This document shows, one piece after another, positions 14,015 through 62,283 of a stretch of DNA of 64,000 nt; position 1 is the stretch's first letter, and each line of letters opens with the position of its first letter. The stretch is taken from the NCBI RefSeq assembly GCF_900177245.1, contig NZ_FXBM01000003.1, positions 248,001 through 312,000 of the forward strand, written 5' to 3'. This DNA comes from Rathayibacter oskolensis (GTDB lineage Bacteria > Actinomycetota > Actinomycetes > Actinomycetales > Microbacteriaceae). The notes below the pieces were generated by a model. The model made no database searches. It was given only the letters and a program-made list of their open reading frames with translations, and was not told the origin of the DNA. Both the position numbers and the translations under genes were made by a program.

Positions 14015-15687
14015 TGGCCGCCGTCCTCGCGATCCTCCAGGTCGCCTCCGTCGTCCTCATCCTCGTGCTGCTCCACCGCCCGCTCGGCGACTACATGGCG
14101 CACCTCTACTCCTCGGCGAAGGACCTCGCCGTCGAGCGCGGCTTCTACCGGCTCATCGGGGTCGACCCGCGCGCCGAGCAGAGCTGGAGCGCCTACCTGC
14201 GCGGTGTGCTCGCGTTCTCGCTCATCGGGGTCCTCCTCGTCTACGCGATCCAGCGCGCGCAGGCCGTCCTGCCGTACTCGCTCGGGTTCCCGGCGATCCC
14301 CGAGGGCCTGTCGTTCAACACGGCGGTGTCGTTCGTCACCAACACGAACTGGCAGTCGTACTCGCCCGACGTGACCATGGGCTACACGGTCCAGCTGATC
14401 GGCCTCGCCGTGCAGAACTTCGTCTCGGCCGGAGTCGGCATCGCCGTCGCCATCGCCCTCGTGCGCGGATTCGCGCGCCGCGGCAGCGACTCCATCGGCA
14501 ACTTCTGGGTCGATCTCACCCGCGGGACCCTCCGCCTCCTCCTGCCCCTGTCGGTGGTCACGGCGATCCTGCTGCTGGCCGGGGGCGTGATCCAGAACGT
14601 CGCCGGATTCACCGACGTCACGACGATCACGGGCGCGACGCAGAGCATCCCCGGCGGGCCGGTCGCCTCGCAGGAGGCGATCAAGATGGTCGGCACCAAC
14701 GGCGGCGGCTTCTTCAACGCCAACTCCGCGCATCCGTTCGAGAACCCGGCCGCGTGGACGAGCCTGCTGCAGGTCGTCCTGATGCTGGCGATCCCGTTCT
14801 CGCTCCCGCGCACCTTCGGCCGCATGGTCGGCAACGCGAAGCAGGGGTACGCGATCCTCGCCGCGATGGCGACGATCTTCCTCGCCTCCCTCACGGCGCT
14901 CACCCTGCTCGAGCTCGCGGGCGGCGGCGCCGCTCCGCAGGCCGCAGGGGGTGCGATGGAGGGCAAGGAGACGCGCTTCGGCATCGCCGGATCCGCCCTG
15001 TTCGGGGCGACGAGCACGCTCACCTCGACCGGCGCCGTCAACTCGATGCACGACTCCTACACGGCCCTCGGCGGCATGCTGCCGATGCTCAACATGATGC
15101 TCGGCGAGGTCGCCCCCGGCGGCGTCGGCTCGGGCCTCTACGGCATGCTCGTCCTCGCGATCCTCGCCGTCTTCATCGGCGGGCTGCTCGTCGGGCGCAC
15201 CCCGGAGTACCTGGGCAAGAAGCTCGGCCCCTACGAGATCAAGCTCGCCAGCATCTACATCCTGATCACGCCGACCCTCGTACTCGCCGGCACCGCGCTC
15301 AGTTTCGCGATCCCCGCCGTGCGGGCCGACGTCGAGAGCACGTCGATCTGGAACCCGGGGCTGCACGGCCTCTCGGAGGTGCTCTACGCCTTCACCTCGG
15401 CCGCGAACAACAACGGCTCGGCGTTCGCGGGGCTCACAGCGAACACTCCGTGGTTCAACACGGCGCTCGGAGTCGCGATGCTGCTCGGCCGGTTCCTCCC
15501 GATCGTGATGGTGCTGGCGCTCGCCGGCTCGCTCGCGAAGCAGGGCACGACTCCGTCGACCGCGGGAACGCTGCCCACCCACCGGCCGCAGTTCGTCGGC
15601 CTGCTCGTGGGCGTCACCGTGATCGTCACCGCACTCACCTACTTCCCCGTGCTCGCACTCGGACCCCTCGCAGAAGGACTCCAGTAA
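14014..15687 (+). CDS. kdpA: Potassium-transporting ATPase subunit A
   Basis: 557 residues, the normal KdpA length, with about ten membrane helices. Selectivity-filter-like loops of the SKT superfamily are visible, for example [53 protein letters not shown] and [12 protein letters not shown]. KdpA binds and conducts K+ across the membrane in the high-affinity Kdp pump. It follows kdpF directly and kdpB begins 4 bases after its stop. Confidence 0.97.
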
Positions 15688-15691
15688 CACC

Positions 15692-17842
15692 ATGACCACG
15701 ACACTCGACAAGCCCGCTTCGTCGCCCGACCGCGAGAAGACTCCGAAGCGAGGCGGTTCGGCGTTCAGCGTCGAGCAGATCCTCGCCGCGCTCCCCGGAG
15801 CGTTCCGCAAGCTCGACCCGCGCCTGATGGTGAAGAACCCGGTCATGTTCCTCGTCGAGGTCGGGGCCGCGCTCACCACCCTGCTCGCGATAGCCGAGCC
15901 GTTCGTCGGCGGCGCCCAGGAGTCGGGCGGCGCGCCCGTCCCCGGCTCCTTCACCTGGGGCATCGCGATCTGGCTCTGGCTGACCGTCGTGTTCGCCAAC
16001 CTGGCCGAGTCGGTCGCCGAGGGTCGCGGCAAGGCGCAGGCCGACAGCCTCCGGAAGACGCGCACCAGCACCATGGCCCGGCGCCTGCTCGAGTACCGGG
16101 CCGGAGACGGTGCCGCGACGCACGCGCAGATCCGGGAGGTCTCCTCCTCCGACCTGCAGCTCGGCGACCACGTCGTGGTCGAGGCCGGCGACCTGATCCC
16201 GGGCGACGGCGACATCGTCTGGGGCATCGCCTCCGTCGACGAGTCGGCGATCACCGGGGAGTCGGCGCCCGTCGTCCGCGAGTCGGGCGGCGACCGCAGT
16301 GCGGTCACCGGCGGCACCCGCGTGCTCTCTGACCGCATCATCGTGCGGATCACGTCGAAGCCGGGCGAGACCTTCGTCGACCGCATGATCGGTCTGGTCG
16401 AGGGAGCCTCCCGCCAGAAGACGCCGAACGAGATCGCGTTGAACATCCTGCTCGCGAGCCTGTCGATCGTCTTCGTCGTCGTCACCCTGACGCTGAACCC
16501 GATCGCGTCCTACGCCGCAGCGCCCGTCAGCGTGCCCGTTCTCGTCGCGCTCCTGGTCTGCCTCATCCCGACCACCATCGGCGCCCTGCTCTCGGCGATC
16601 GGCATCGCCGGCATGGACCGGCTCGTGCAGCGCAACGTGCTGGCCATGTCGGGCCGCGCGGTCGAGGCCGCGGGCGACGTCACCACGCTGCTGCTGGACA
16701 AGACCGGCACCATCACCTACGGCAACCGGCGCGCGACCGCGTTCCTGACCCTCGACGGAGTGCGCGAGGCCGACCTCTCGGACGCCGCGGCCTCCTCCTC
16801 GCTCAGCGATCCCACTCCGGAGGGCAAATCGATCGTGGACCTCGCGGTCGCCTCGGGGCGCGCCGTCGCCGAGCCGGGCCACGCGGTCGTCGTGCCGTTC
16901 ACCGCCCAGACCCGCATGAGCGGGCTCGATCTGCCCGACGGCACCTCGATCCGCAAGGGCGCCGGCAGCGCCGTGCGCGCCTGGGTGGAGGAGGAGGGAC
17001 CGCTCGCCGGGCCCGTCGCCGACCAGCTCGCCGAGATCGTGGACACGGTGTCGGAGAGCGGTGGGACGCCTCTCGTCGTCGCCGTGAAGGACGCCTCCGG
17101 AGCACGGATCCTCGGAGTCGTGCACCTCAAGGACGTCGTGAAGGAGGGGCTCGCCGAGCGCTTCGCCGACCTGCGCGCCATGGGCATCCGCACCGTGATG
17201 ATCACGGGCGACAACCCGCTGACCGCGAAGGCGATCGCTGCGGAGGCGGGGGTCGACGACTACCTCGCCGAGGCGACTCCGGAGCAGAAGCTCGACTACA
17301 TCCGCAAGGAGCAGGAGGGCGGCAACCTCGTCGCGATGACCGGCGACGGCACCAACGACGCGCCCGCCCTCGCGCAGGCCGACGTCGGCGTCGCGATGAA
17401 CACCGGCACGTCGGCCGCGAAGGAGGCCGGCAACATGGTCGACCTCGACTCCGACCCGACGAAGCTCATCGACATCGTGCGCATCGGCAAGCAGCTGCTG
17501 ATCACCCGCGGAGCGCTGACCACGTTCTCGATCGCGAACGACGTGGCGAAGTACTTCGCGATCATCCCCGCGATGTTCGCGGGAGTGTTCCCGGGTCTCG
17601 CACTGCTCAACATCATGCAGCTGCACTCCCCGGCGTCGGCGATCCTCTCGGCGATCATCTTCAACGCGCTGGTGATCATCGTGCTGATCCCGCTGGCCCT
17701 GCGGGGAGTCGCCTACCGGGCGCTGAGCGCCTCGAAGGTCCTCAGCCGCAACCTGCTGGTCTACGGGCTCGGCGGAGTGATCGCGCCGTTCATCGGGATC
17801 AAGATCATCGACCTCGTCGTCTCCCTCATCCCCGGCTTCTGA
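15692..17842 (+). CDS. kdpB: Potassium-transporting P-type ATPase subunit B
   Basis: 716 residues. The phosphorylation site is Asp336 in [14 protein letters not shown]. Other P-type motifs are [11 protein letters not shown] (actuator TGES loop), the nucleotide-binding-domain segment near KGAGSAV, and [18 protein letters not shown] (hinge). About seven membrane helices are present. KdpB hydrolyses ATP to drive K+ uptake through KdpA. Its length is slightly above the usual 680 because of an extended N-terminus. In operon kdpFABCDE. Confidence 0.97.
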
Positions 17843-52088: not shown

Positions 52089-53339
52089 TCAGGTCGTCTT
52101 CACCGCGTTGTCCCCGTGGTTGCCGATCACCTCGTAGGCCGTGCTGCCGACCGCCCGCACCGGCTTCGAGTTCAGGTGCCCGGTCGCCCACTGGTTGCCG
52201 AGCACCGACACCGCGCGCGCGTTCACGGCCTCGACGCAGTGGGTCCAGCCCGCCCCCGCGTCCTCGCAGGCGAAGATGTTGCCGGTGATGCTGAAGCCGA
52301 CGGTGCGAGCGGTCGGCGAGACTCCGGTGATCGAGATCGCGGGGTAGGTGTTCGCCCCGGCCTTGCCTCCGTTGCTGATGGCGTTGCCGACGATCTGGAT
52401 CTGGGCGAGGTCCTCGGTGAGCCACGGCGGCATCGTGTAGACGAGCGACTGCCGGCGCGCCCCCTCCATGATGTTGTTCGCGATCGTGATGCGGCGGTTC
52501 CCGCGGAGCTCGATGTTGATCTGCGGCGAGCCGTCGAGGTGGTTGCCGAGGATGCGGATCGGGCCGCCCTCGACCGAGATGTCGGCGTAGGAGGCGCCGA
52601 TGTTGTTCTCGACGATCCAGGAGTCGATCATCCGGTAGCTCGCCCAGATCCCGGTGCCCGTGCACTGGTCGATGCTGCAGCGCTGGATGCGGTTGAGCAG
52701 CCCGAGGTCGCCGAAGGTGCCGTCGTTCAGGCGCATGCCGTAGTCGGTCCAGCCGTAGAGCTGCAGCGAGTCGAGCACCGTCTTGTCGAGGTGGGCCGAG
52801 ACGCACGGCGAGCCGAGCCCGTTCGCGTCGAGGATCAGGTTCTCGAAGCGGCAGGCCGAGAAGGCCCCGGTCACCACCGGCGCGTCGGTCAGCGAGAGGA
52901 TGCGCGTCGACAGCTCTCCCGCTCCGCGGAACGCGATGCTCGCGAGCCCGCCGGCCCGCCCGATCGACCCGGCGATCCGGTAGATGCCGCGCGGGAAGTA
53001 GACGACCCCTCCGTAGGTGGCGACGGCAGCGTCGATCGCCGCGTCGATGGCCGGCAGGTCGTCGGTGCTGCCGTCGCCGGTCGCTCCGTAGTCCTGCACG
53101 TTGTAGACCAGCTCGCCCTTGCCGACCGGGCGCTCGCCGGAGTCGGTGAGCACCGCCTCCGGGAGCTGGGCCACCGGGACGAGGCCGGAGGCGTCGAGCC
53201 CCGCGACCCCGCCGGGCACGGCGATCTCGGAGTGCAGCACGGGGTCGGAGGGGGAGGAGGTGGCCAGGGTCGCGCCGAGGGGGGTGGCGAAGAGTCCGCG
53301 GCGGGTGAGCTCGGCGGTGACTGCGGTGATGAGGGGCAT
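52089..53339 (-). CDS. Right-handed beta-helix protein, phage tailspike/pectate-lyase-like
   Basis: 416 residues. Residues 40-65 (GVAGLDASGLVPVAQLPEAV) match the short spacer common in phage tail-fibre and tailspike proteins. From residue 78, NVQDYGATGDGSTDDLPAID is the classic entry of pectate-lyase-superfamily helices (PF12708-like). Repeated short strands (IRILGNHLDG, ITIANNIMEG, IQIVGNAISNG, VGFSITGNIF) form the beta-helix coils. No signal peptide is clear. No other phage gene is nearby. It is divergent from the c-di-GMP polysaccharide operon, so it may act on that or another surface polymer (inferred). Confidence 0.82.
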   Translation of the reverse strand: MPLITAVTAELTRRGLFATPLGATLATSSPSDPVLHSEIAVPGGVAGLDASGLVPVAQLPEAVLTDSGERPVGKGELVYNVQDYGATGDGSTDDLPAIDAAIDAAVATYGGVVYFPRGIYRIAGSIGRAGGLASIAFRGAGELSTRILSLTDAPVVTGAFSACRFENLILDANGLGSPCVSAHLDKTVLDSLQLYGWTDYGMRLNDGTFGDLGLLNRIQRCSIDQCTGTGIWASYRMIDSWIVENNIGASYADISVEGGPIRILGNHLDGSPQINIELRGNRRITIANNIMEGARRQSLVYTMPPWLTEDLAQIQIVGNAISNGGKAGANTYPAISITGVSPTARTVGFSITGNIFACEDAGAGWTHCVEAVNARAVSVLGNQWATGHLNSKPVRAVGSTAYEVIGNHGDNAVKTT

Positions 53340-53515: not shown

Positions 53516-55849
53516 ATGCAGCGCACCCACGGGCTCGGGCCCCTCGACGTCGTGATCGCCGGTCTCTTCGGCCTTCTGGCGCTCGGCCTGATCGTGAACT
53601 CGACGGTGCTCCTGCTCTCCGCCCCTCCCGGCAGCTGGGCGTTCGTCATCGCGTTCGGCGTGGCCGTCGCCCTCACCGCGTCGCTGCGGATCGAGCTCGG
53701 CCGCCGCTCGGGCATGCCGACGGCCGGGCTGACGGTGACGCTCCTCGTGGTGCTCCAGCCCGGAGTCGATCCGCTCCGGCTCGTGGGCGTCTGGACGGCG
53801 GCGACCCTCGTCGCGCAGCTCGTGCAGACCAGGAGCCCAGCGGTCGCCGCCTACGTCACCGGGCTGGGAGCCCTCGCGGCCATCGCCTACCTCGTGGTCT
53901 TCGACGCCCTCCGCGCAGTCGTGACGGCTCCGGTCGCCCTGCTCGCGGCGACCCTCGTCTTCCTCATGATCGTGCTGGCCGTCGACTTCGTGCGGCAGCG
54001 CGGGCGCTGGAGCCTCGACTCGACGTTCGGCTTCAGCGCGCTCGTCCCGAGCCGCCTGCTGCTGCTCGTCCTGCTGCTGTGGGCGCTCGCGACCACGATC
54101 TGGTTCCTCGACAGCGTCGTCGTCCCGGCCATGGCGGACGACCCGGGGATCGAGCAGAGTCCGATGCTCCTCCTGGGCATCGGAGCGCTGGTCTTCAGCG
54201 TCGCCAAGCGGATCGAGGTCAGGCGGGTGCGGAGGCGACTCGCCGGGGTGCTCGACGCGGCCCTCGAGCTGCCGTGGGGAGGCGCGTCGCAGGCCGAGGG
54301 CGCGATCATCGCGCACGCGCGCACCTCGATCGAGGCCGATCGCATCGAGGTGCGCGACGAGCCCGCGTCGGGCAGCGAGATCGGCTCGGTCATGCTGCTG
54401 CCGGACGGCCGCACCCGCTACGTGGTCGCGTCGAAGCGGGTCAGCGCGGTGCCCTTCGACACCGAGGACGAGCAGATCCTCGACGCGCTGGCGCACATGG
54501 GCACCGACACCCTCGGCGCCCGCGACGACGTGGAGTCGCTCCGCCGCTACGTCGACCGCGATCCGCTCACGGGGCTGCCGAACCAGCGGGCGTTCCAGAA
54601 GGCGCTGGCCGCCTACAACCGCGACCGCCGGCCGTTCGAGGGCATCGCGGTGCTGTTCCTCGACCTCGACGACTTCAAGGACCTCAACGACGGGCGCGGG
54701 CACCACGTGGGCGACAAGATGCTCCGGCTCGTCGGCCAGCGCCTGGGCGGTATCACCGCGGAGGGCGGGTTCGCCGCGCGCATCGGCGGCGACGAGTTCG
54801 TGCTGATCCTGCGGGGTCTGCACTCGGCCGACGACGCGCGGAGGCGAGCAGAGGCGCTCATCGAGACGGTGAGCGCCTCCGAGACGGTCGACGGCGACAC
54901 CCTCGCGCCGGTGGTGAGCGTCGGAGTCGCCTTCTCGGCGCACGAGGAGCGGGATCCGTCGACGATCGTGATCGAGGCCGACCGCAGCATGCTCGCGCTC
55001 AAGCGCAGCAGGAGCCGCGCCGGCCGCGAGCGCTCGAGCGCGATCGACGTCACCTCGGTGCTCGTCGATCCACTCAGGGAGGCGGCGGCGCGCGCGGTCC
55101 GCGAGGGCACCCTCGACCTGGCGTTCCAGCCGATCGTCGAGCTGGCGACCAACCGCATCTGGGCGTTCGAGGCGCTGCTCAGACTCGACGACCCGATCGT
55201 GGGCAGCATCCCCCCGGCCGTGCTGATCCCGAAGGTCCGCGAGCTCGACCTCCTCGACGAGCTCACCGTCCAGGTGGTCGAGAAGGCGATGGCGGCGGCC
55301 GAGAGCTTCCGCGACACCGGCGTGGGCGTCGACTGCATGACCGTCAATGTCGACCTCGAGCAGCTCGCTCCCGATCGGCTCGGCGATCGTCTCGCCGGGG
55401 TGCCCGCGCGCTTCCCCGGGATCCGCCTCTGCGTCGAGCTGAACGAGCGCTCGCTCGACGACGCGACCGACGAGCTGCGGGCGCACGCCCAGCGCCTGCG
55501 CGACGTCGGCGTGCTGATCGCTCTCGACGACTACGGGGCGCAGGGATCGTCGGCGGTCTCGATCGCGACCTTCCCGCTCGACATCGTGAAGCTCGACCGG
55601 GCCCTGATCACCGACCTCGCGACCGAGCTCCGCAAGCGCGAGATCGTGCGCGCGATGCAGTCGTACTCCGTCGCCGTCGGGGTCCGCGTGATCGTGGAGG
55701 GAGCGGAGGACGCCGAGACGATCGCCCTCCTCCGCGAGCTCGGGGTGACCGACGTGCAGGGGTACGTCTTCGGTCGTCCTGACACTCGGACGGGGGCGGA
55801 ACACCGATTGCTGACCACCGGATCGGTCGCGGCGCACTCCCTAGACTGA
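53516..55849 (+). CDS. Membrane-bound GGDEF-EAL c-di-GMP enzyme
   Basis: 777 residues. Residues 15-225 hold about six membrane helices. A GAF-like region follows at 235-335. The GGDEF domain has the intact active-site motif GGDEF at 424-428 (synthesis of c-di-GMP). The EAL domain begins at EAL 552-554 and keeps DDYG in place of DDFG and EGAED in place of EGVE, so phosphodiesterase activity is plausible. ATG start has a weak ribosome site. First gene of the rightward surface-polysaccharide group; likely sets the c-di-GMP level seen by the MshEN domain of the synthase at 59792. Confidence 0.92.
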   Translation: MQRTHGLGPLDVVIAGLFGLLALGLIVNSTVLLLSAPPGSWAFVIAFGVAVALTASLRIELGRRSGMPTAGLTVTLLVVLQPGVDPLRLVGVWTAATLVAQLVQTRSPAVAAYVTGLGALAAIAYLVVFDALRAVVTAPVALLAATLVFLMIVLAVDFVRQRGRWSLDSTFGFSALVPSRLLLLVLLLWALATTIWFLDSVVVPAMADDPGIEQSPMLLLGIGALVFSVAKRIEVRRVRRRLAGVLDAALELPWGGASQAEGAIIAHARTSIEADRIEVRDEPASGSEIGSVMLLPDGRTRYVVASKRVSAVPFDTEDEQILDALAHMGTDTLGARDDVESLRRYVDRDPLTGLPNQRAFQKALAAYNRDRRPFEGIAVLFLDLDDFKDLNDGRGHHVGDKMLRLVGQRLGGITAEGGFAARIGGDEFVLILRGLHSADDARRRAEALIETVSASETVDGDTLAPVVSVGVAFSAHEERDPSTIVIEADRSMLALKRSRSRAGRERSSAIDVTSVLVDPLREAAARAVREGTLDLAFQPIVELATNRIWAFEALLRLDDPIVGSIPPAVLIPKVRELDLLDELTVQVVEKAMAAAESFRDTGVGVDCMTVNVDLEQLAPDRLGDRLAGVPARFPGIRLCVELNERSLDDATDELRAHAQRLRDVGVLIALDDYGAQGSSAVSIATFPLDIVKLDRALITDLATELRKREIVRAMQSYSVAVGVRVIVEGAEDAETIALLRELGVTDVQGYVFGRPDTRTGAEHRLLTTGSVAAHSLD

Positions 55850-55974
55850 CGCCAGAACGGGGCGCCGCAGCCGATTCCACGGCTTCCGCCGAGGCCCGAG
55901 CACGACCGTTCGATTCTCCATCCTCGAGCGCCGGCCGGTCCGAGCTCCCGTATGCCGATCGGATCGACGCCCAC

Positions 55975-58092
55975 ATGCTCTTCTCCCCCCTGCGCCGGCG
56001 CGCTCTCGCAGCCGCCGTCGTCCCGGCGATCTGCGTCGCCCTCACCCTGGGAGCCGCCTCCAGCGCCTCCGCCGCCGACTTCGTCGACCCGGCGACCGGA
56101 GCGGTCGTCGAGGCCGCGGCGAGCGGAGCGACGATCACCGTCACCGCCGGTGCGGCGCTCGAGTACCTCACCCTCCCCGTCGCCGACGGCGTCACTCCGA
56201 CGCGCGTGATCGCGACGCTGGAGGCGTTCGAGCCGCTGACCGGGTCGCTGGCCGTCATCGTGTCGGGCCGCACCGTACAGACCCTCGACGCGTCGACCGC
56301 GACGACCCTCGACCTCCCGATCCAGCCCGGAGACGTCGTCGACGGCGTGCTCGCGATCGGATTCCAGCTGAACGGGGCGACCGGCTCCTCCGGCGCGCTC
56401 TGCGAGGTCGAGGGCCGCTCGCTCACGGTCTCGGGCATCGGAGTCGTCGGCGACGGCCTCCCCGCGGCGCCCACCACGGTCGGCGACTTCTTCCCCGACG
56501 CGATCACCGCCGTCTCGATCGTCGTGCCCGACGGTGCCGACGACGCCCTGCGCGCCGCGGGACTGTCGGCCGCCGCCTCGCTCGCCTCCCGCTACCCCTC
56601 CGGAGTCGCCATCACGGTGTCGGAGGAGAGCGCGGTCGACGGCCGCCCCGACCTCGACGCCGCGCAGGGCCGCGTCGTGCGCTTCGAGGCGGGCGACGGC
56701 GACGTCGTCACGTCGATCGGCGACGACTCCGGCGTGCCGGCCCTGACGCTCTCGGGTGCCGAGGGCGACCTCGCCACGGCCGGAGCAGCGCTCGGCAGCG
56801 ACTACGCGGGCCTCGCCTCGAGCGCCACCACGACCGGGCTCTCGCAGAAGATGACCCCGTCGAGCTCGCTCGAGCACACCCTCGCCGACTTCGGCGCCGA
56901 TCGGATCGCGCTCGGCAGCACCGGTGCGGCGGCGAGCTACACCACCATCACCCAGTCGGCGTTCGGCGGCCCGGTCTCCTCGGTCGAGCTCGAGCTGGTC
57001 GGCACGCACTCCGCGATCCCCGAGGGCGTCACGGCGACGGCGAACGTCTACTGGAACGACTTCCTGATCGGCTCGAGCGTCCTCGGCACCGAGACCGCGG
57101 TCGACATGGAGCTGTCGGTCCCCACCGGCCAGCTCGGCTCCTCCAACGGACTCTCGGTGCGGCTCTCGGCCGTCCGCGAGAGCGACGGCCTCTGCATCGG
57201 CTCCGCCGACTCGGTGCCGATCGAGTTCTTCGTCGACGGGGCGTCCTCGACCGTCACCGGCGTCCGCGGCGAGTCGGCGGCTCCCGGCTTCGGCCGGTTC
57301 CCGCAGGCCTTCGGCGGCGAGCTCGCCGTCGCCTTCGGCGAGTCGGCCACCGGCGCCGACGCGCTGCGCAGCGCGGGCGACCTCGTGACCGCGCTGCAGC
57401 GGGTCGACTCCTCCCCGCTCGCCGTCTCGGTCGTCGGCCTCGACGACTTCGCCGACTCCGACCGCTCCGGCCTCATCGTCGGGGCGGGCGCCGAGGAGGC
57501 GGAGTCGCTGCGCACGCCGCTGCGCCTCGCCGAGTTCACCGCGATCGACTCCTCGAGCCTCGACTACGGAGTCGGCACCGACGCCCCCTACGCCGCACTC
57601 GAGGCCTTCACCACCGAGGGGCGCGACCTCGTGCTGCTCGGCGGGTGGAGCCCCGACGGCGACGCCACCGCCTCCTCGGCGCTGCAGTCCTCGATCGGCG
57701 CCTACGCGGCCGAGGAGGGCTGGACCTCGCTCTCGGGCAACCTCGCGGTGACCGGATCGGCGACGACCGAGCCGGTGCAGATCGACAGCAACGAGATCAC
57801 TCCGCAGGCGGAGGTCAAGGACGACTACTCGTCGTACGCGATCTGGTTCGTGGTCGCGATCGTCGTCATCGGCCTGCTGATCCTGCTCGGCTGGCTCGCC
57901 CGCCGCCGCCGCGCCCGGGCGGTCGCCGCCTACGTCGACGCGCAGGAGCGCGCCGAGGCGGAGGCGGCAGCAGGCTTGCAGACCACGACTCCGGAGGCGG
58001 CAGCGGGTCCGCAGGCTCCGGAGGCGTCCCACGGCGCCCACGCGGCCGATCCGACGCCGCCGGCGCGCCCCGGCACGCCCTCCTCCGACTGA
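55975..58092 (+). CDS. BcsB-like secreted and membrane-anchored protein
   Basis: 705 residues. A cleavable signal peptide (about 1-34) ends ASSASA. A large beta-rich external part (about 35-620) resembles the cellulose-synthase accessory protein BcsB in its carbohydrate-binding/ferredoxin-like modules (VSSVELELVGTHSAIPEG, TANVYWNDFLIGSSVL, VVGLDDFADSD). A single C-terminal membrane helix (about 622-645; IWFVVAIVVIGLLILLGWLA) is followed by a basic segment and an Ala/Pro-rich tail. BcsB guides the growing polymer from the synthase through the envelope. Gap of 125 bases from the c-di-GMP gene; next gene begins 14 bases after its stop. Confidence 0.82.
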   Translation: MLFSPLRRRALAAAVVPAICVALTLGAASSASAADFVDPATGAVVEAAASGATITVTAGAALEYLTLPVADGVTPTRVIATLEAFEPLTGSLAVIVSGRTVQTLDASTATTLDLPIQPGDVVDGVLAIGFQLNGATGSSGALCEVEGRSLTVSGIGVVGDGLPAAPTTVGDFFPDAITAVSIVVPDGADDALRAAGLSAAASLASRYPSGVAITVSEESAVDGRPDLDAAQGRVVRFEAGDGDVVTSIGDDSGVPALTLSGAEGDLATAGAALGSDYAGLASSATTTGLSQKMTPSSSLEHTLADFGADRIALGSTGAAASYTTITQSAFGGPVSSVELELVGTHSAIPEGVTATANVYWNDFLIGSSVLGTETAVDMELSVPTGQLGSSNGLSVRLSAVRESDGLCIGSADSVPIEFFVDGASSTVTGVRGESAAPGFGRFPQAFGGELAVAFGESATGADALRSAGDLVTALQRVDSSPLAVSVVGLDDFADSDRSGLIVGAGAEEAESLRTPLRLAEFTAIDSSSLDYGVGTDAPYAALEAFTTEGRDLVLLGGWSPDGDATASSALQSSIGAYAAEEGWTSLSGNLAVTGSATTEPVQIDSNEITPQAEVKDDYSSYAIWFVVAIVVIGLLILLGWLARRRRARAVAAYVDAQERAEAEAAAGLQTTTPEAAAGPQAPEASHGAHAADPTPPARPGTPSSD

Positions 58093-58106
58093 CCGGATCC
58101 CGGGCC

Positions 58107-59789
58107 ATGACCAGCACGATCACCGCGCCGGCAGCGCGGGCCGCCGCGCCCGCGCGCCGCCCGTGGTGGCTGCGCGCCTGGGACAGGCTCGGTGCGCCCG
58201 TCACCGGGCGGCAGGTGCCGGGCACCGTCGTCGTGCTCGTCGTGTCGCTCCTGGTCGGCTTCGCCGCCTGCCTGGTGACCACCTCCTCGGGCATCAACCT
58301 CGCCTACGCCGACACGCAGAGCCACCTCTCGATCTCGCGGCGCATCTTCGACTCGAAGGCGCCCGGATTCACGCAGCTCGGCACCGTCTGGCTCCCGATC
58401 CCGAGCCTCATCCTCATCCCCTTCGTGCAGTCGCTCTGGCTCTGGCACACCGGCTGGGCCGCAGGCCTGCTCGGCATGGTCTGCCTCGCCGGGACCGCCT
58501 GCGGGGTGTACCGGATCTCGGCGCGGGTGGGTCACCTCCGGGCCGGCCGCCTCACCGCCGTGCTGCTCGTCCTGGCGAACCCCGGCGTGCTCTACGCCTA
58601 CTCGACCGCGATGACGGAGCCGGTGCTGATCGTCACGATGGTCGGCTGCTTCGCCGGCCTCTCGCACTGGGTCACCAGCCGCCGCAACCTGATGGCCGGC
58701 GAGATGATGGTCTTCTGCGGGCTGCCCGCCGCGGCGGCCACGCTCTCGCGCTACGAGGGCTGGGTGCTCGTGTTCGGCGGCACGCTCGTCGTGCTGATCG
58801 TCGCCTGGCGGCGCAAGAGGTCGCTCTTCTACGCCGTCAAGATGGCCTGCGCCTTCGGGATCCTGCCGCTGATCTCGATCATCTGGTGGCTCGTCTACAA
58901 CTTCACCGTCTACTCCAACCCGCTCGAGTTCATGAACGGCGAGTACTCGGCCTCGAACCTGCAGAAGGCGGTCGCCGATGCGGGGCTCCTCGCCTACCAG
59001 GGCAACGCGGGGCTGACGCTGTGGTCGTACAACTGGGCGGTGCTCGAGACCTCGGGGCTGCTGACGGTCGCCCTCGGCATCGCCGGCGCCCTGGTCCTCG
59101 CGTGGCGCCGGGGGATCTCGGACGACGCTCTCGTGATCTGGCTGATGATCGTCTCGTACGCGTTCTCGCTGCTCAGCCTCTACCTCGGCCAGACCCACAT
59201 GAACAACGACCAGACGCTGCCGACGAACTGGTGGAACAACCGCTACGCGCTCTCGGTGCTGCCGTTCCTCGCGGTGCTCGCGGCGGTGCTCGTCGACGCC
59301 GTGCGGCGCCTCCCGCGGATCGGGGTGGGCGCGCTCGGCGCCGTGCTGGTGCTGCTCGGCGTGCAGACCGCGTGGTGGGCGCAGGATCTCGACCGCAACG
59401 CCGTGATCGCCGAGGCCACCGGGTACGTCGGCCTCAAGGAGGCGTCGGGGGCGACCGCCGCCGCCGCGTTCCTCGGCGAGAACTACGACGGCGGGGGAGT
59501 GCTGATGGACGAGAGCGCCGCCGGCAACGCGCTGCTGCCCGAGATCGGCATACCGCTCAGCGAGTACTACAACCGCTCGGCCGGCGAGCTCTTCGACGAG
59601 GCGCTCGCCGCTCCCTACACGCACGCGAAGTGGGTGTTCGTGACGACCGCCGACGCCCCCGAGCTGAGCGAGACCGGAGTCGCCGACCTGGTCTACGACG
59701 CGATCACCAGCGACTCCTCGTTCGACACCCGCTACCGCCCCGTGTTCGAGCAGGGCATCTACGTCGTCTACGAGCGGCTCGGAGGCTGA
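58107..59789 (+). CDS. Membrane glycosyltransferase, GT39/ArnT-like
   Basis: 560 residues with about eleven membrane helices. The first external loop carries the Asp-containing segment NLAYADTQSHLSISRRIFDS. FTQLGTVWLPIPSLILIPF and SRYEGWVLVFGGTL are typical of polyprenyl-phosphate-dependent family-39-type enzymes. The C-terminal 130 residues form a soluble external domain. It probably transfers a sugar from a lipid carrier onto the polymer outside the membrane. Three bases separate it from the synthase gene. Confidence 0.85.
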   Translation: MTSTITAPAARAAAPARRPWWLRAWDRLGAPVTGRQVPGTVVVLVVSLLVGFAACLVTTSSGINLAYADTQSHLSISRRIFDSKAPGFTQLGTVWLPIPSLILIPFVQSLWLWHTGWAAGLLGMVCLAGTACGVYRISARVGHLRAGRLTAVLLVLANPGVLYAYSTAMTEPVLIVTMVGCFAGLSHWVTSRRNLMAGEMMVFCGLPAAAATLSRYEGWVLVFGGTLVVLIVAWRRKRSLFYAVKMACAFGILPLISIIWWLVYNFTVYSNPLEFMNGEYSASNLQKAVADAGLLAYQGNAGLTLWSYNWAVLETSGLLTVALGIAGALVLAWRRGISDDALVIWLMIVSYAFSLLSLYLGQTHMNNDQTLPTNWWNNRYALSVLPFLAVLAAVLVDAVRRLPRIGVGALGAVLVLLGVQTAWWAQDLDRNAVIAEATGYVGLKEASGATAAAAFLGENYDGGGVLMDESAAGNALLPEIGIPLSEYYNRSAGELFDEALAAPYTHAKWVFVTTADAPELSETGVADLVYDAITSDSSFDTRYRPVFEQGIYVVYERLGG

Positions 59790-59791
59790 CC

Positions 59792-61729
59792 ATGGTCCAG
59801 ACGCGCACGGCCCGTGTGGGCGAGATCCTGCTCGAGCGCGAGCTGATCACCCAGGAGCAGCTCGACGAGGCACTGCGCCGCCAGGCCCGCGAGGGCGGCC
59901 TGCTCGGCCGGCACCTCATCATCGACGGCGCTGTCACCCGCCGCGAGATGTACGCGGCGCTCGCCGAGCAGTGGGACGCCCCGATGGTCGACCTCGTCGA
60001 GGAGCCCCCGGGCGCGGCCCTGCTGGCCCGCATCGGCGCCTCGAGCCTGGTCGGCGCCGGCTGGGTGCCGTGGCGAGTGCTCGAGGACGGCACCGGCGTG
60101 ATCGCGACGTCGGTGCCTCCGACGGCCGCGATGTACGACGAGGCGCGCGAGATGCTCGGGGTCGACCGCATCTCGGTGCGGACGACCACCGACTGGGACA
60201 TCTTCCAGGCCGTCGAGAGCGCCTGCCGCGCCGCACTGCTGTTCGGCGCCGCCGACGCACTCGCCGTCGAGAGCGGCGACGAGTCGGCGAAGTCGGGGCT
60301 GCGCCGCTGGCAGGTGGTCACCCCGCTCGTGCTGGTCGTCGTCGTCGTCGTGGGCGTCGTGCTCGCACCGAGCATCACCTTCGTGATCGTGCTCGCGGCG
60401 GCGAACCTGCTGTTCCTGATGAACATCGCGTTCAAGGCGCTGGCCGGGCTTCGCGCCCCGCTCAACAAGAGCTCGGTGACGGCGTGGGAGGAGGAGGTGG
60501 CGCTCGAGCGCGGCCGTCGCGGTCTCGCGGTGTCGCCTCCGCGCATGACCGACGACGAGCTGCCGATCTACACGATCCTCGTCCCGGCCTACAAGGAGGC
60601 CAACATCATCAGCAAGCTGCTGGTGAACCTCGGCGCGCTCGACTACCCCAAGGCCAAGCTCGAGGTGCTCGTGCTGCTCGAGGCCGACGACGACGAGACG
60701 ATCGGCGCGGTGCGGCGGATGAACCCGCCCGAGTACGTGCGCATGGTGATCGTGCCGCCGGGAGGCCCGCAGACCAAGCCCCGCGCCTGCAACTACGGCC
60801 TCAGCTTCGCCCGCGGCGAGTTCGTCGTGATCTACGACGCCGAGGACCGGCCCGACCCCGACCAGCTGCGCAAGTGCGTGCGGCTGTTCCGCGAGGACGA
60901 GTTCGAGCGCCGGCACGTGAACCCCGAGCAGAAGCAGCTCGTCTGCCTCCAGGGCGCGCTGAGCTACTTCAACGCCGACTACAACGTGCTCACCCGGATG
61001 TTCGCGGTCGAGTACGCGCACTGGTTCGGCGCGATGCTGCCCGGCCTCGACCAGTCGCACCTGCCGATCCCGCTCGGCGGCACCTCCAACCACTTCGAGA
61101 CCCGCGTGCTGCGCGAGCTCGGCGCCTGGGACCCGTACAACGTGACCGAGGACGCCGACCTCGGGCTCCGCGTGGCCGCGCACGGCTATCGCGTCGGCGT
61201 GGTCGACTCGAACACCTGGGAGGAGGCGTGCGCCGAGGTCCCCGCGTGGATCAAGCAGCGCACCCGGTGGATCAAGGGCTACATGATGACCGCGGGCGTG
61301 AACACGCGGCACCCGATCCGCTGGTTCCGCGTGAACGGGATCCTGGGCACGCTGAGCCTGGTCGCGCTGATCATGGGGACGCCGGTCGCGTTCCTCCTGT
61401 ACCCGCTGGTGCTGGGGTTCACCATCGTCACCTACGTCGGCGTGCAGTTCCTCGGGCTCGACATCCCGGAGTGGCTGATCGTCGCCGGCACGACGAACAT
61501 GCTGTTCTCGAACGCGCTGATGATCGTGGTGTCGGGCATCGCCGCGTGGAAGCGCTACAACTGGCGGATCGCCGCGTTCGCCGTGCTGAACCCGGTCTAC
61601 TGGGTGCTGCACTCGATCTCGGCCTGGCGCGCGGCCTGGCAGATCGTCTTCAGCCCGCACAAGTGGGAGAAGACGCCCCACGGGCTGACGGAGGAGTACG
61701 AGGACTCCACCATCGGGGCGCCGGCCTGA
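59792..61729 (+). CDS. Family-2 polysaccharide synthase with N-terminal MshEN (c-di-GMP-binding type) domain
   Basis: 645 residues. Residues 5-135 are a GspE-N/MshEN domain with RVGEILLERELITQEQLDEA and RHLIIDGAVTRREMYAAL, the type that binds c-di-GMP in secretion ATPases and in NfrB. Two membrane helices lie at about 172-215. The GT2 catalytic core has VPAYKE (about 267), Asp349-Ala-Glu-Asp352, EDADLG near 452 and the QRTRW motif (489-493) of processive synthases. Further membrane helices fill about 510-620. This is an inner-membrane sugar-polymer synthase predicted to be switched by c-di-GMP. Last gene of the group; hairpin at 61740. Confidence 0.92.
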   Translation: MVQTRTARVGEILLERELITQEQLDEALRRQAREGGLLGRHLIIDGAVTRREMYAALAEQWDAPMVDLVEEPPGAALLARIGASSLVGAGWVPWRVLEDGTGVIATSVPPTAAMYDEAREMLGVDRISVRTTTDWDIFQAVESACRAALLFGAADALAVESGDESAKSGLRRWQVVTPLVLVVVVVVGVVLAPSITFVIVLAAANLLFLMNIAFKALAGLRAPLNKSSVTAWEEEVALERGRRGLAVSPPRMTDDELPIYTILVPAYKEANIISKLLVNLGALDYPKAKLEVLVLLEADDDETIGAVRRMNPPEYVRMVIVPPGGPQTKPRACNYGLSFARGEFVVIYDAEDRPDPDQLRKCVRLFREDEFERRHVNPEQKQLVCLQGALSYFNADYNVLTRMFAVEYAHWFGAMLPGLDQSHLPIPLGGTSNHFETRVLRELGAWDPYNVTEDADLGLRVAAHGYRVGVVDSNTWEEACAEVPAWIKQRTRWIKGYMMTAGVNTRHPIRWFRVNGILGTLSLVALIMGTPVAFLLYPLVLGFTIVTYVGVQFLGLDIPEWLIVAGTTNMLFSNALMIVVSGIAAWKRYNWRIAAFAVLNPVYWVLHSISAWRAAWQIVFSPHKWEKTPHGLTEEYEDSTIGAPA

Positions 61730-62228: not shown

Positions 62229-62283
62229 TTTCAAGCTTTACTCCGCTTTATCCAGATCGGATAAAGCGGAGTAAAGCTTGAAA
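62229..62283. repeat. AT-rich perfect inverted repeat, 25-bp arms
   Basis: Arms 62229-62253 and 62259-62283 are exactly complementary; the spacer is AGATC. The left arm begins TTTCAAGCTTTACTCCGC and ends TTTATCC, only 40% GC in a genome near 70%. It lies in the 866-base gap between the synthase and the flavokinase-like gene. The rest of that gap (62284-62595) shows no gene that I can support. Confidence 0.9.

Follow-up and report, generated by a model that had tools for sequence, protein, structure and literature searches.

The question raised by this locus is how a Gram-positive bacterium might place a polysaccharide synthase under the control of cyclic di-GMP (c-di-GMP) when the synthase lacks a PilZ domain. 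The locus lies in a 64,000-nucleotide stretch of Rathayibacter oskolensis DNA (contig NZ_FXBM01000003.1, positions 248,001 to 312,000; here called the window), in which four genes follow one another on the same strand at 53516–61729, separated by gaps of 125, 14 and 2 bp. They encode a membrane GGDEF-EAL protein, a BcsB-like secreted protein, a polytopic membrane protein resembling GT-C glycosyltransferases, and a glycosyltransferase family 2 (GT2) synthase with an N-terminal MshEN domain. We consider that the operon probably serves to make a surface polysaccharide by a synthase-dependent route under c-di-GMP gating. The original prediction, made from the DNA alone, had the coordinates and common strand of the four open reading frames right, and its assignment to an actinobacterium agrees with the closest relative of the GT2, which is 95% identical and comes from Rathayibacter sp. 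VKM Ac-2754. It placed the four genes correctly but drew the bounds of the locus too tightly, leaving out a divergent gene at 52089–53339 that is discussed below.

The synthase (59792–61729, plus strand, 645 residues) has its MshEN domain within residues 8–145, followed by two transmembrane (TM) helices at 182–220, a GT2 domain and further TM helices. It matches the GT2 family PF13641 (E = 1.2e-26) and the MshEN family PF05157 (E = 1.9e-9), scores 55.6 bits against NF053729, a model of the c-di-GMP motif with a cut-off of 38, and gives no match to PilZ. The motifs of processive GT2 enzymes (ADDDE at 298, DAED at 349, TED at 452 and QRTRW at 489) are present together with membrane helices identified by hydropathy, and D300, D349, D352, T452–D454, Q489, R492 and W493 are invariant across an alignment of 27 synthases. 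The protein thus carries the motif set of a processive GT2, and would be expected to act processively. The N-terminal part of the alignment profile matches the structures of PilF, PilB and MshE, and the GT2 part those of cellulose synthases. As regards the class of product, for which cellulose is one candidate, the poly-N-acetylglucosamine, cellulose, NodC and other models are matched, each only partially; the partial matches to PgaC/IcaA and CelA are found in all 27 members.

The c-di-GMP-binding double motif of MshEN comprises 53 residues (8–60 of the GT2, plus strand, 59813–59971). It was compared with a pattern of two 24-residue motifs, RLGxxhhxxGhhxxxxLxxxLxxQ, joined by a 5-residue spacer and scored at 22 relaxed positions and 12 strict key residues. 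The window protein has 20 of the 22 relaxed positions and a spacer of exactly 5, where 300 shuffled N-termini reach at most 17. Nine of the 12 key residues are identical; the changes are Leu10 to Val and Leu54 to Met, which are conservative, and Arg38 to Leu. The Rathayibacter and Leucobacter proteins score 20–22 out of 22, the full 22 being reached in a Leucobacter locus (L008; loci are numbered with L and genomes with G). Arg9 and Gln32, reported as important for c-di-GMP binding in MshE (PMC5013675), are retained in the window and in L001–L006, L008 and L021.

The GGDEF-EAL protein (53516–55849, plus strand, 777 residues) is predicted to have about six TM helices, followed by a GGDEF domain (PF00990, E = 1.7e-33) and then an EAL domain (PF00563, E = 6.3e-47). 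It aligns with PDB entry 4rnh, a 'Motility regulator', with E = 5.3e-52. The motifs GGDEF, EALLR, VNVD, LDDYG, VKLD, VEGAE and VQGY were found, and AEGG stands at the position expected for the I-site RxxD. These are active-site and I-site motifs as usually understood, and both cyclase and phosphodiesterase activities are plausible for the protein. The predicted pairing of a c-di-GMP enzyme with an adjoining synthase that has MshEN in place of PilZ is therefore borne out by the Pfam and NF053729 matches and the lack of a PilZ match.

The hallmarks of BcsB are a signal peptide, two repeated domain pairs and a C-terminal TM anchor. The BcsB-like protein (55975–58092, plus strand, 705 residues) has a hydrophobic N-terminus (residues 10–28), a C-terminal TM helix (623–641, from hydropathy) and two regions with one cysteine each, C143 and C407. 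Comparison of one half with the other gave no match (hhalign 17.3), so that an internal duplication is not shown. The window protein has no match to the BcsB family PF03170, and neither do the Rathayibacter genomes G001–G003; a comparison with PDB sequences found no BcsB. Among 24 aligned family members, the window protein included, 16 match PF03170 at E up to 1, the best at 4.2e-8. The family cut-off is exceeded in six of ten genomes, and by position five of these matches are the gene beside the synthase and one (L081) is another copy. A 12-member profile of the family compared with seven BcsB proteins gave an hhalign score of 60.8 (probability 89.2), where 60 column shuffles reached at most 24.0 and the profile in reverse 19.1. 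A second alignment, collinear across profile columns 81–630 (score 57.1, probability 84.8), covers both halves. The 24-member alignment reached a probability of 63.3 with the seven-member BcsB alignment and was not significant (1.8) with the single E. coli BcsB sequence.

Further evidence comes from two bridging proteins, encoded directly upstream of an N-terminal MshEN-GT2 in two metagenome-assembled genomes (MAGs) of Rhizobiales, L031 and L032. They match both the actinobacterial BcsB-like profile (3.9e-12 and 1.1e-10, respectively) and Pfam BcsB (1.3e-8 and 1.4e-6), and a profile of genuine BcsB proteins matched L032 (1.2e-6), not L031. The homology to BcsB that had been proposed is thus distant but supported, by way of profiles or bridging homologues. 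It may be added that one Nocardioides MAG (G010) holds three BcsB-like matches (L081, L088 and L089).

The third gene (58107–59789, plus strand) encodes a polytopic membrane protein of 560 residues, which had been called GT39-like. The window protein has no match in Pfam, including PMT and PMT_2, and none in the PDB at E up to 10; its match to the NCBIfam model LA3751 (E = 0.0012) is far under that model's cut-off. Of 21 aligned family members, again including the window protein, five match PF13231 PMT_2 (best 2.4e-8) and one matches PMT, and D69, H73, R78, R79 and D82 are invariant. The label as a GT-C enzyme of the GT39/PMT type is fair but weak, with low certainty as to donor and acceptor. 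GT-C enzymes use lipid-linked sugars, and this one is likely to do so outside the membrane. A second GT-C gene, 43% identical, is present elsewhere in the VKM Ac-2754 genome (L105, 6995–8671), and the 16 kb around it contain no BcsB-like or MshEN-GT2 match.

A scan of genome contigs was used to survey the locus in other species, taking the best 80 of 117 relatives, of which 33 are actinobacterial by record title. The cassette of BcsB-like, GT-C and MshEN-GT2 genes is whole in 26 of these 33 loci, or in 26 of the 28 that are not cut by contig ends (L016, L021, L027, L030 and L033 are cut); L025 and L029 are the uncut loci without it. In L022 the GT2 has the opposite orientation to the other two genes, and in L004 and L013 frames appear to be split. 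The recurrence of MshEN-GT2 with BcsB-like genes is thus seen in several actinobacterial genera, and the three-gene cassette is not a product of chance. It is nevertheless patchy, since the GT-C gene occurs in only three of 248 genomes drawn evenly from the order, one of them being G001, on which the draw was centred.

Adjacent c-di-GMP enzymes, sought with the window's own enzyme as the query, were found at 16 of the 26 cassette loci. They occur in more than one arrangement: a GGDEF-EAL gene upstream (L001, L002, L003, L005 and L006, and additionally L100 and L101), or a GGDEF and a GGDEF-EAL gene downstream (11 loci, the first gene in L024 being an open frame only). A third arrangement is seen in G028, where EAL-DICT and GGDEF are encoded by two different genes, about 4–6 kb away from the cassette. 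That the cassette stays constant while the enzymes are arranged in three ways argues for a functional linkage between them. In one Rathayibacter genome (VKM Ac-2630; L004, 6145–9983) there is no GGDEF-EAL gene, and both the BcsB-like and the GT-C frames are split. It was considered whether L004 is a decaying operon, but its sister G018 (L099), which is similarly without GGDEF-EAL, has both of the other frames whole, and the splits in L004 may therefore be sequencing errors or decay at the level of the strain.

Outside the actinobacteria (47 loci), Pfam identifies a BcsB-type gene upstream of the GT2 in L031, L032 and L034, that of L034 having been missed by our in-house profiles. The other 44 loci gave no match to the in-house BcsB-like profile, Pfam having been tried on the neighbours at L047 and L068 only. 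These two loci are alphaproteobacterial; each has an N-terminal MshEN-GT2 with 22/22 relaxed positions, and the gene upstream encodes a carbamoyl-phosphate synthase subunit. In L034 (Paraburkholderia, 15324–16796), BcsB and MshEN-GT2 genes are accompanied downstream by a mannose-1-phosphate guanylyltransferase / mannose-6-phosphate isomerase gene, hinting at a mannose-based donor there.

Across genomes, the c-di-GMP machinery was found to follow the operon. All 15 operon genomes searched have a single NF053729 match, always in this GT2, and eight operon-free genomes have none; EAL is present in 15/15 versus 0/8, and GGDEF in 15/15 versus one of the same eight. An rpoB tree of 25 genomes contains a supported clade (99/97) of 15 genomes, which includes the named Rathayibacter genomes and VKM Ac-2854. 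Within it GGDEF, EAL, the MshEN motif, the β-helix gene and the BcsB-like gene are each found in all nine operon genomes and in none of the six others, in every one of which rpoB was found. In a wider set GGDEF occurs in six of 15 operon-free genomes, four of them outside this clade and two (G030 and G032) unplaced on the tree. Independent pairs on the 25-genome tree point in the same direction for EAL in 6/6 cases (p = 0.031) and for GGDEF in an average of 5.9 out of 7, with none opposite (median p = 0.031), counts which in both cases include the operon's own enzyme. GGDEF genes outside the operon are present in 7/9 versus 0/6 genomes of the clade (Fisher p = 0.007, without a correction for kinship), and for these the independent-pair test is not significant (p = 0.125). 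In G002 (R. iranicus) and G004 (VKM Ac-2854), the operon GGDEF is the sole one at E up to 1e-10, and the operon EAL is likewise the sole one. The receptor types searched were MshEN and PilZ, and PilZ, sought in ten operon genomes, has no match in any of them.

On this basis we suggest, tentatively, that c-di-GMP might be a single-purpose rather than a global signal in Rathayibacter and its closest relatives, with the cyclases, the phosphodiesterases and the only receptor among the types searched (MshEN and PilZ) all tracking the cassette. In R. iranicus and VKM Ac-2854 the circuit would then consist of one GGDEF-EAL protein and one adjoining MshEN-GT2. Should this co-occurrence be upheld, a near-minimal c-di-GMP circuit would be available in some of the genomes, with one enzyme, one receptor and one output, and this would be a clean setting in which to ask what purpose a second messenger serves.

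The divergent gene left out of the predicted locus (52089–53339, minus strand) encodes a right-handed β-helix protein resembling pectate lyases, rhamnogalacturonases and epimerases (PF12708, E = 7.2e-14). It occurs in 10/10 operon genomes and in 0/6 related operon-free genomes; it adjoins the operon in L001–L006 and L099–L101, and in L098 some 6 kb separate it from the synthase. No match to it was found at the remaining 20 cassette loci, and it is therefore a partner in the Rathayibacter group only. It is possibly an enzyme that trims or modifies the polymer.

These components can be combined into a mechanism. What is shown is the gene content, the homologies, the conserved grouping, the largely retained motifs of the Rathayibacter and Leucobacter proteins and the joint occurrence of the components; binding of the messenger, the direction in which it regulates, processivity, export, the parts played by the GT-C and β-helix proteins and the polymer itself are inferred. 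The membrane GGDEF-EAL protein would set the local level of c-di-GMP, by synthesis or breakdown, and binding of the messenger to the MshEN domain at the N-terminus of the GT2 would turn on the enzyme, which would use a nucleotide sugar to build a chain processively. The chain would be extruded via the membrane helices of the GT2, and the BcsB-like protein, held by its C-terminal helix, would cap the exit and guide the chain. The GT-C protein may decorate or terminate the chain with a lipid-linked sugar. In cellulose systems BcsZ has a cutting or modifying role, and in the Rathayibacter group the β-helix protein might similarly cut or modify the polymer.

Several observations weigh against this mechanism. 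In the window MshEN, the turn residue Gly18 is replaced by Glu, and the motif II residue Arg38 is Leu both there and in L001–L006. Arg9 and Gln32 are absent from all 17 Micrococcaceae loci (Arthrobacter, Paenarthrobacter and Pseudarthrobacter), 11 of which adjoin c-di-GMP enzymes, and the motif scores of L022, L023, L025, L026, L027 and L029 are at chance level (15–17). No adjacent enzyme was detected at 10 of the 26 cassette loci; L004 and L099 (genomes G017 and G018) retain the GT2 without the operon GGDEF-EAL, with a GGDEF-EAL present elsewhere in each genome; and the β-helix gene is confined to the Rathayibacter group and G028. Most of these points would be explained if the synthase system were real and MshEN, no longer a gate, were a remnant that still folds or a domain used for docking, the GGDEF and EAL neighbours acting elsewhere or on transcription. 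We regard this as unlikely, as the Rathayibacter and Leucobacter proteins have 20–22 of the 22 positions and exceed the NF053729 cut-off, and the genomes of the clade that have the operon are also those with the motif, EAL and GGDEF. The E. coli protein NfrB (see below) is a precedent for the activation of a GT2 by MshEN. The prediction that the contact residues would be conserved among the homologues holds for the most part in Rathayibacter and Leucobacter, but fails in the Micrococcaceae. The loss of Arg9 and Gln32 means that gating may not be family-wide: it is plausible for proteins of the Rathayibacter type, and doubtful in the Micrococcaceae, of which all four genomes examined (G005, G007, G008 and G066) still pass the NF053729 cut-off. 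Since enzymes often still adjoin the cassette in that family, receptor loss or replacement could be tested there.

It could be argued instead that the GT2 makes not a polymer but a polyprenyl-phosphate sugar, the donor with which the GT-C protein would glycosylate a wall polymer or a protein, with the BcsB-like protein as a scaffold. The presence of a GT-C partner at 26 of the 28 uncut actinobacterial loci is in keeping with this idea, as are the use of lipid-linked sugars by GT-C enzymes and the fact that the GT2 also matches the MftF model, that of a non-polymer enzyme. The idea is nonetheless improbable in view of two motifs that mark processive GT2 enzymes, TED and QRTRW, the C-terminal helices and the partial matches to PgaC/IcaA and CelA in every aligned synthase. 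Furthermore, L031, L032 and L034 have a BcsB-type partner and no GT-C match, though L032 is a contig of 6.3 kb. A polymerising synthase, in the window probably gated by c-di-GMP, remains our preferred reading.

Two features lie downstream of the operon. Between it and a riboflavin-kinase-like gene, at 62229–62283 of the window, two perfectly matched AT-rich arms of 25 bp flank a 5-nt loop, in DNA of about 71% GC; this inverted repeat is a possible terminator. Its 12-base core was seen among the fetched loci only in L052, once. In VKM Ac-2754 (L001, 13335–13709) an extra fragment, 98% identical to residues 549–633 of the window MshEN-GT2, is located between the operon and the riboflavin-kinase gene. 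An empty site was sought using the riboflavin-kinase neighbour, and no shared synteny was found.

The architecture had been predicted to differ from that of bcs systems with PilZ. There is indeed no PilZ, but systems of this kind have precedents. One is NfrB of E. coli, a c-di-GMP-activated MshEN-GT2 exopolysaccharide synthase (PMC8669469, PMC8669472). Both NfrB and the window synthase are a GT2 fused to an MshEN receptor and paired with a diguanylate cyclase of its own (DgcJ for NfrB), and the two MshEN domains align by BLAST (E = 3e-10 across window residues 4–77) and by hhalign (probability 96.6). In NfrB, however, MshEN is C-terminal and the partners are NfrA, in the outer membrane, and YbcH; the NfrB operon itself contains no cyclase gene. 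In the window MshEN is N-terminal, the partners are the BcsB-like and GT-C proteins, and none of the four operon genes matches an outer-membrane pore family. The match of the window synthase to NF008411 is partial (27.9 bits, cut-off 1170). Fusions of MshEN to glycosyltransferases were noted by Wang et al. (PMC5013675).

In Listeria monocytogenes, PssA-E combines the GT2 PssC and the BcsB orthologue PssD with a non-PilZ receptor, PssE, in one operon (PMC4125290). As in the window, a Gram-positive GT2 with a BcsB partner is placed under a non-PilZ c-di-GMP receptor of the same operon, but PssE is a separate I-site GGDEF protein with no MshEN fusion, and no GT-C protein was seen in that account. 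BgsBA of S. meliloti, a mixed-linkage glucan synthase, likewise has a GT2 polysaccharide synthase whose c-di-GMP-binding region is not PilZ, but there the messenger binds a C-terminal region of BgsA (PMC5567048, PMC10374906). The window shares with BcsA-BcsB a distant BcsB homologue and a GT2 core akin to that of BcsA (hhalign probability 98.3), and differs from it in having MshEN in place of PilZ and an additional GT-C gene.

In searches of the open-licence literature no description of an N-terminal MshEN-GT2 with BcsB-like and GT-C partners was found, nor any paper in which 'Rathayibacter' and 'GGDEF' occur together. MshEN-GT2 synthases, fusions of MshEN with glycosyltransferases, and a Gram-positive BcsB with a non-PilZ receptor are all already known. 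What appears to be new is their combination with a GT-C enzyme, in a Gram-positive cassette that joins three known modules, the MshEN receptor, the GT2 synthase and the BcsB partner.

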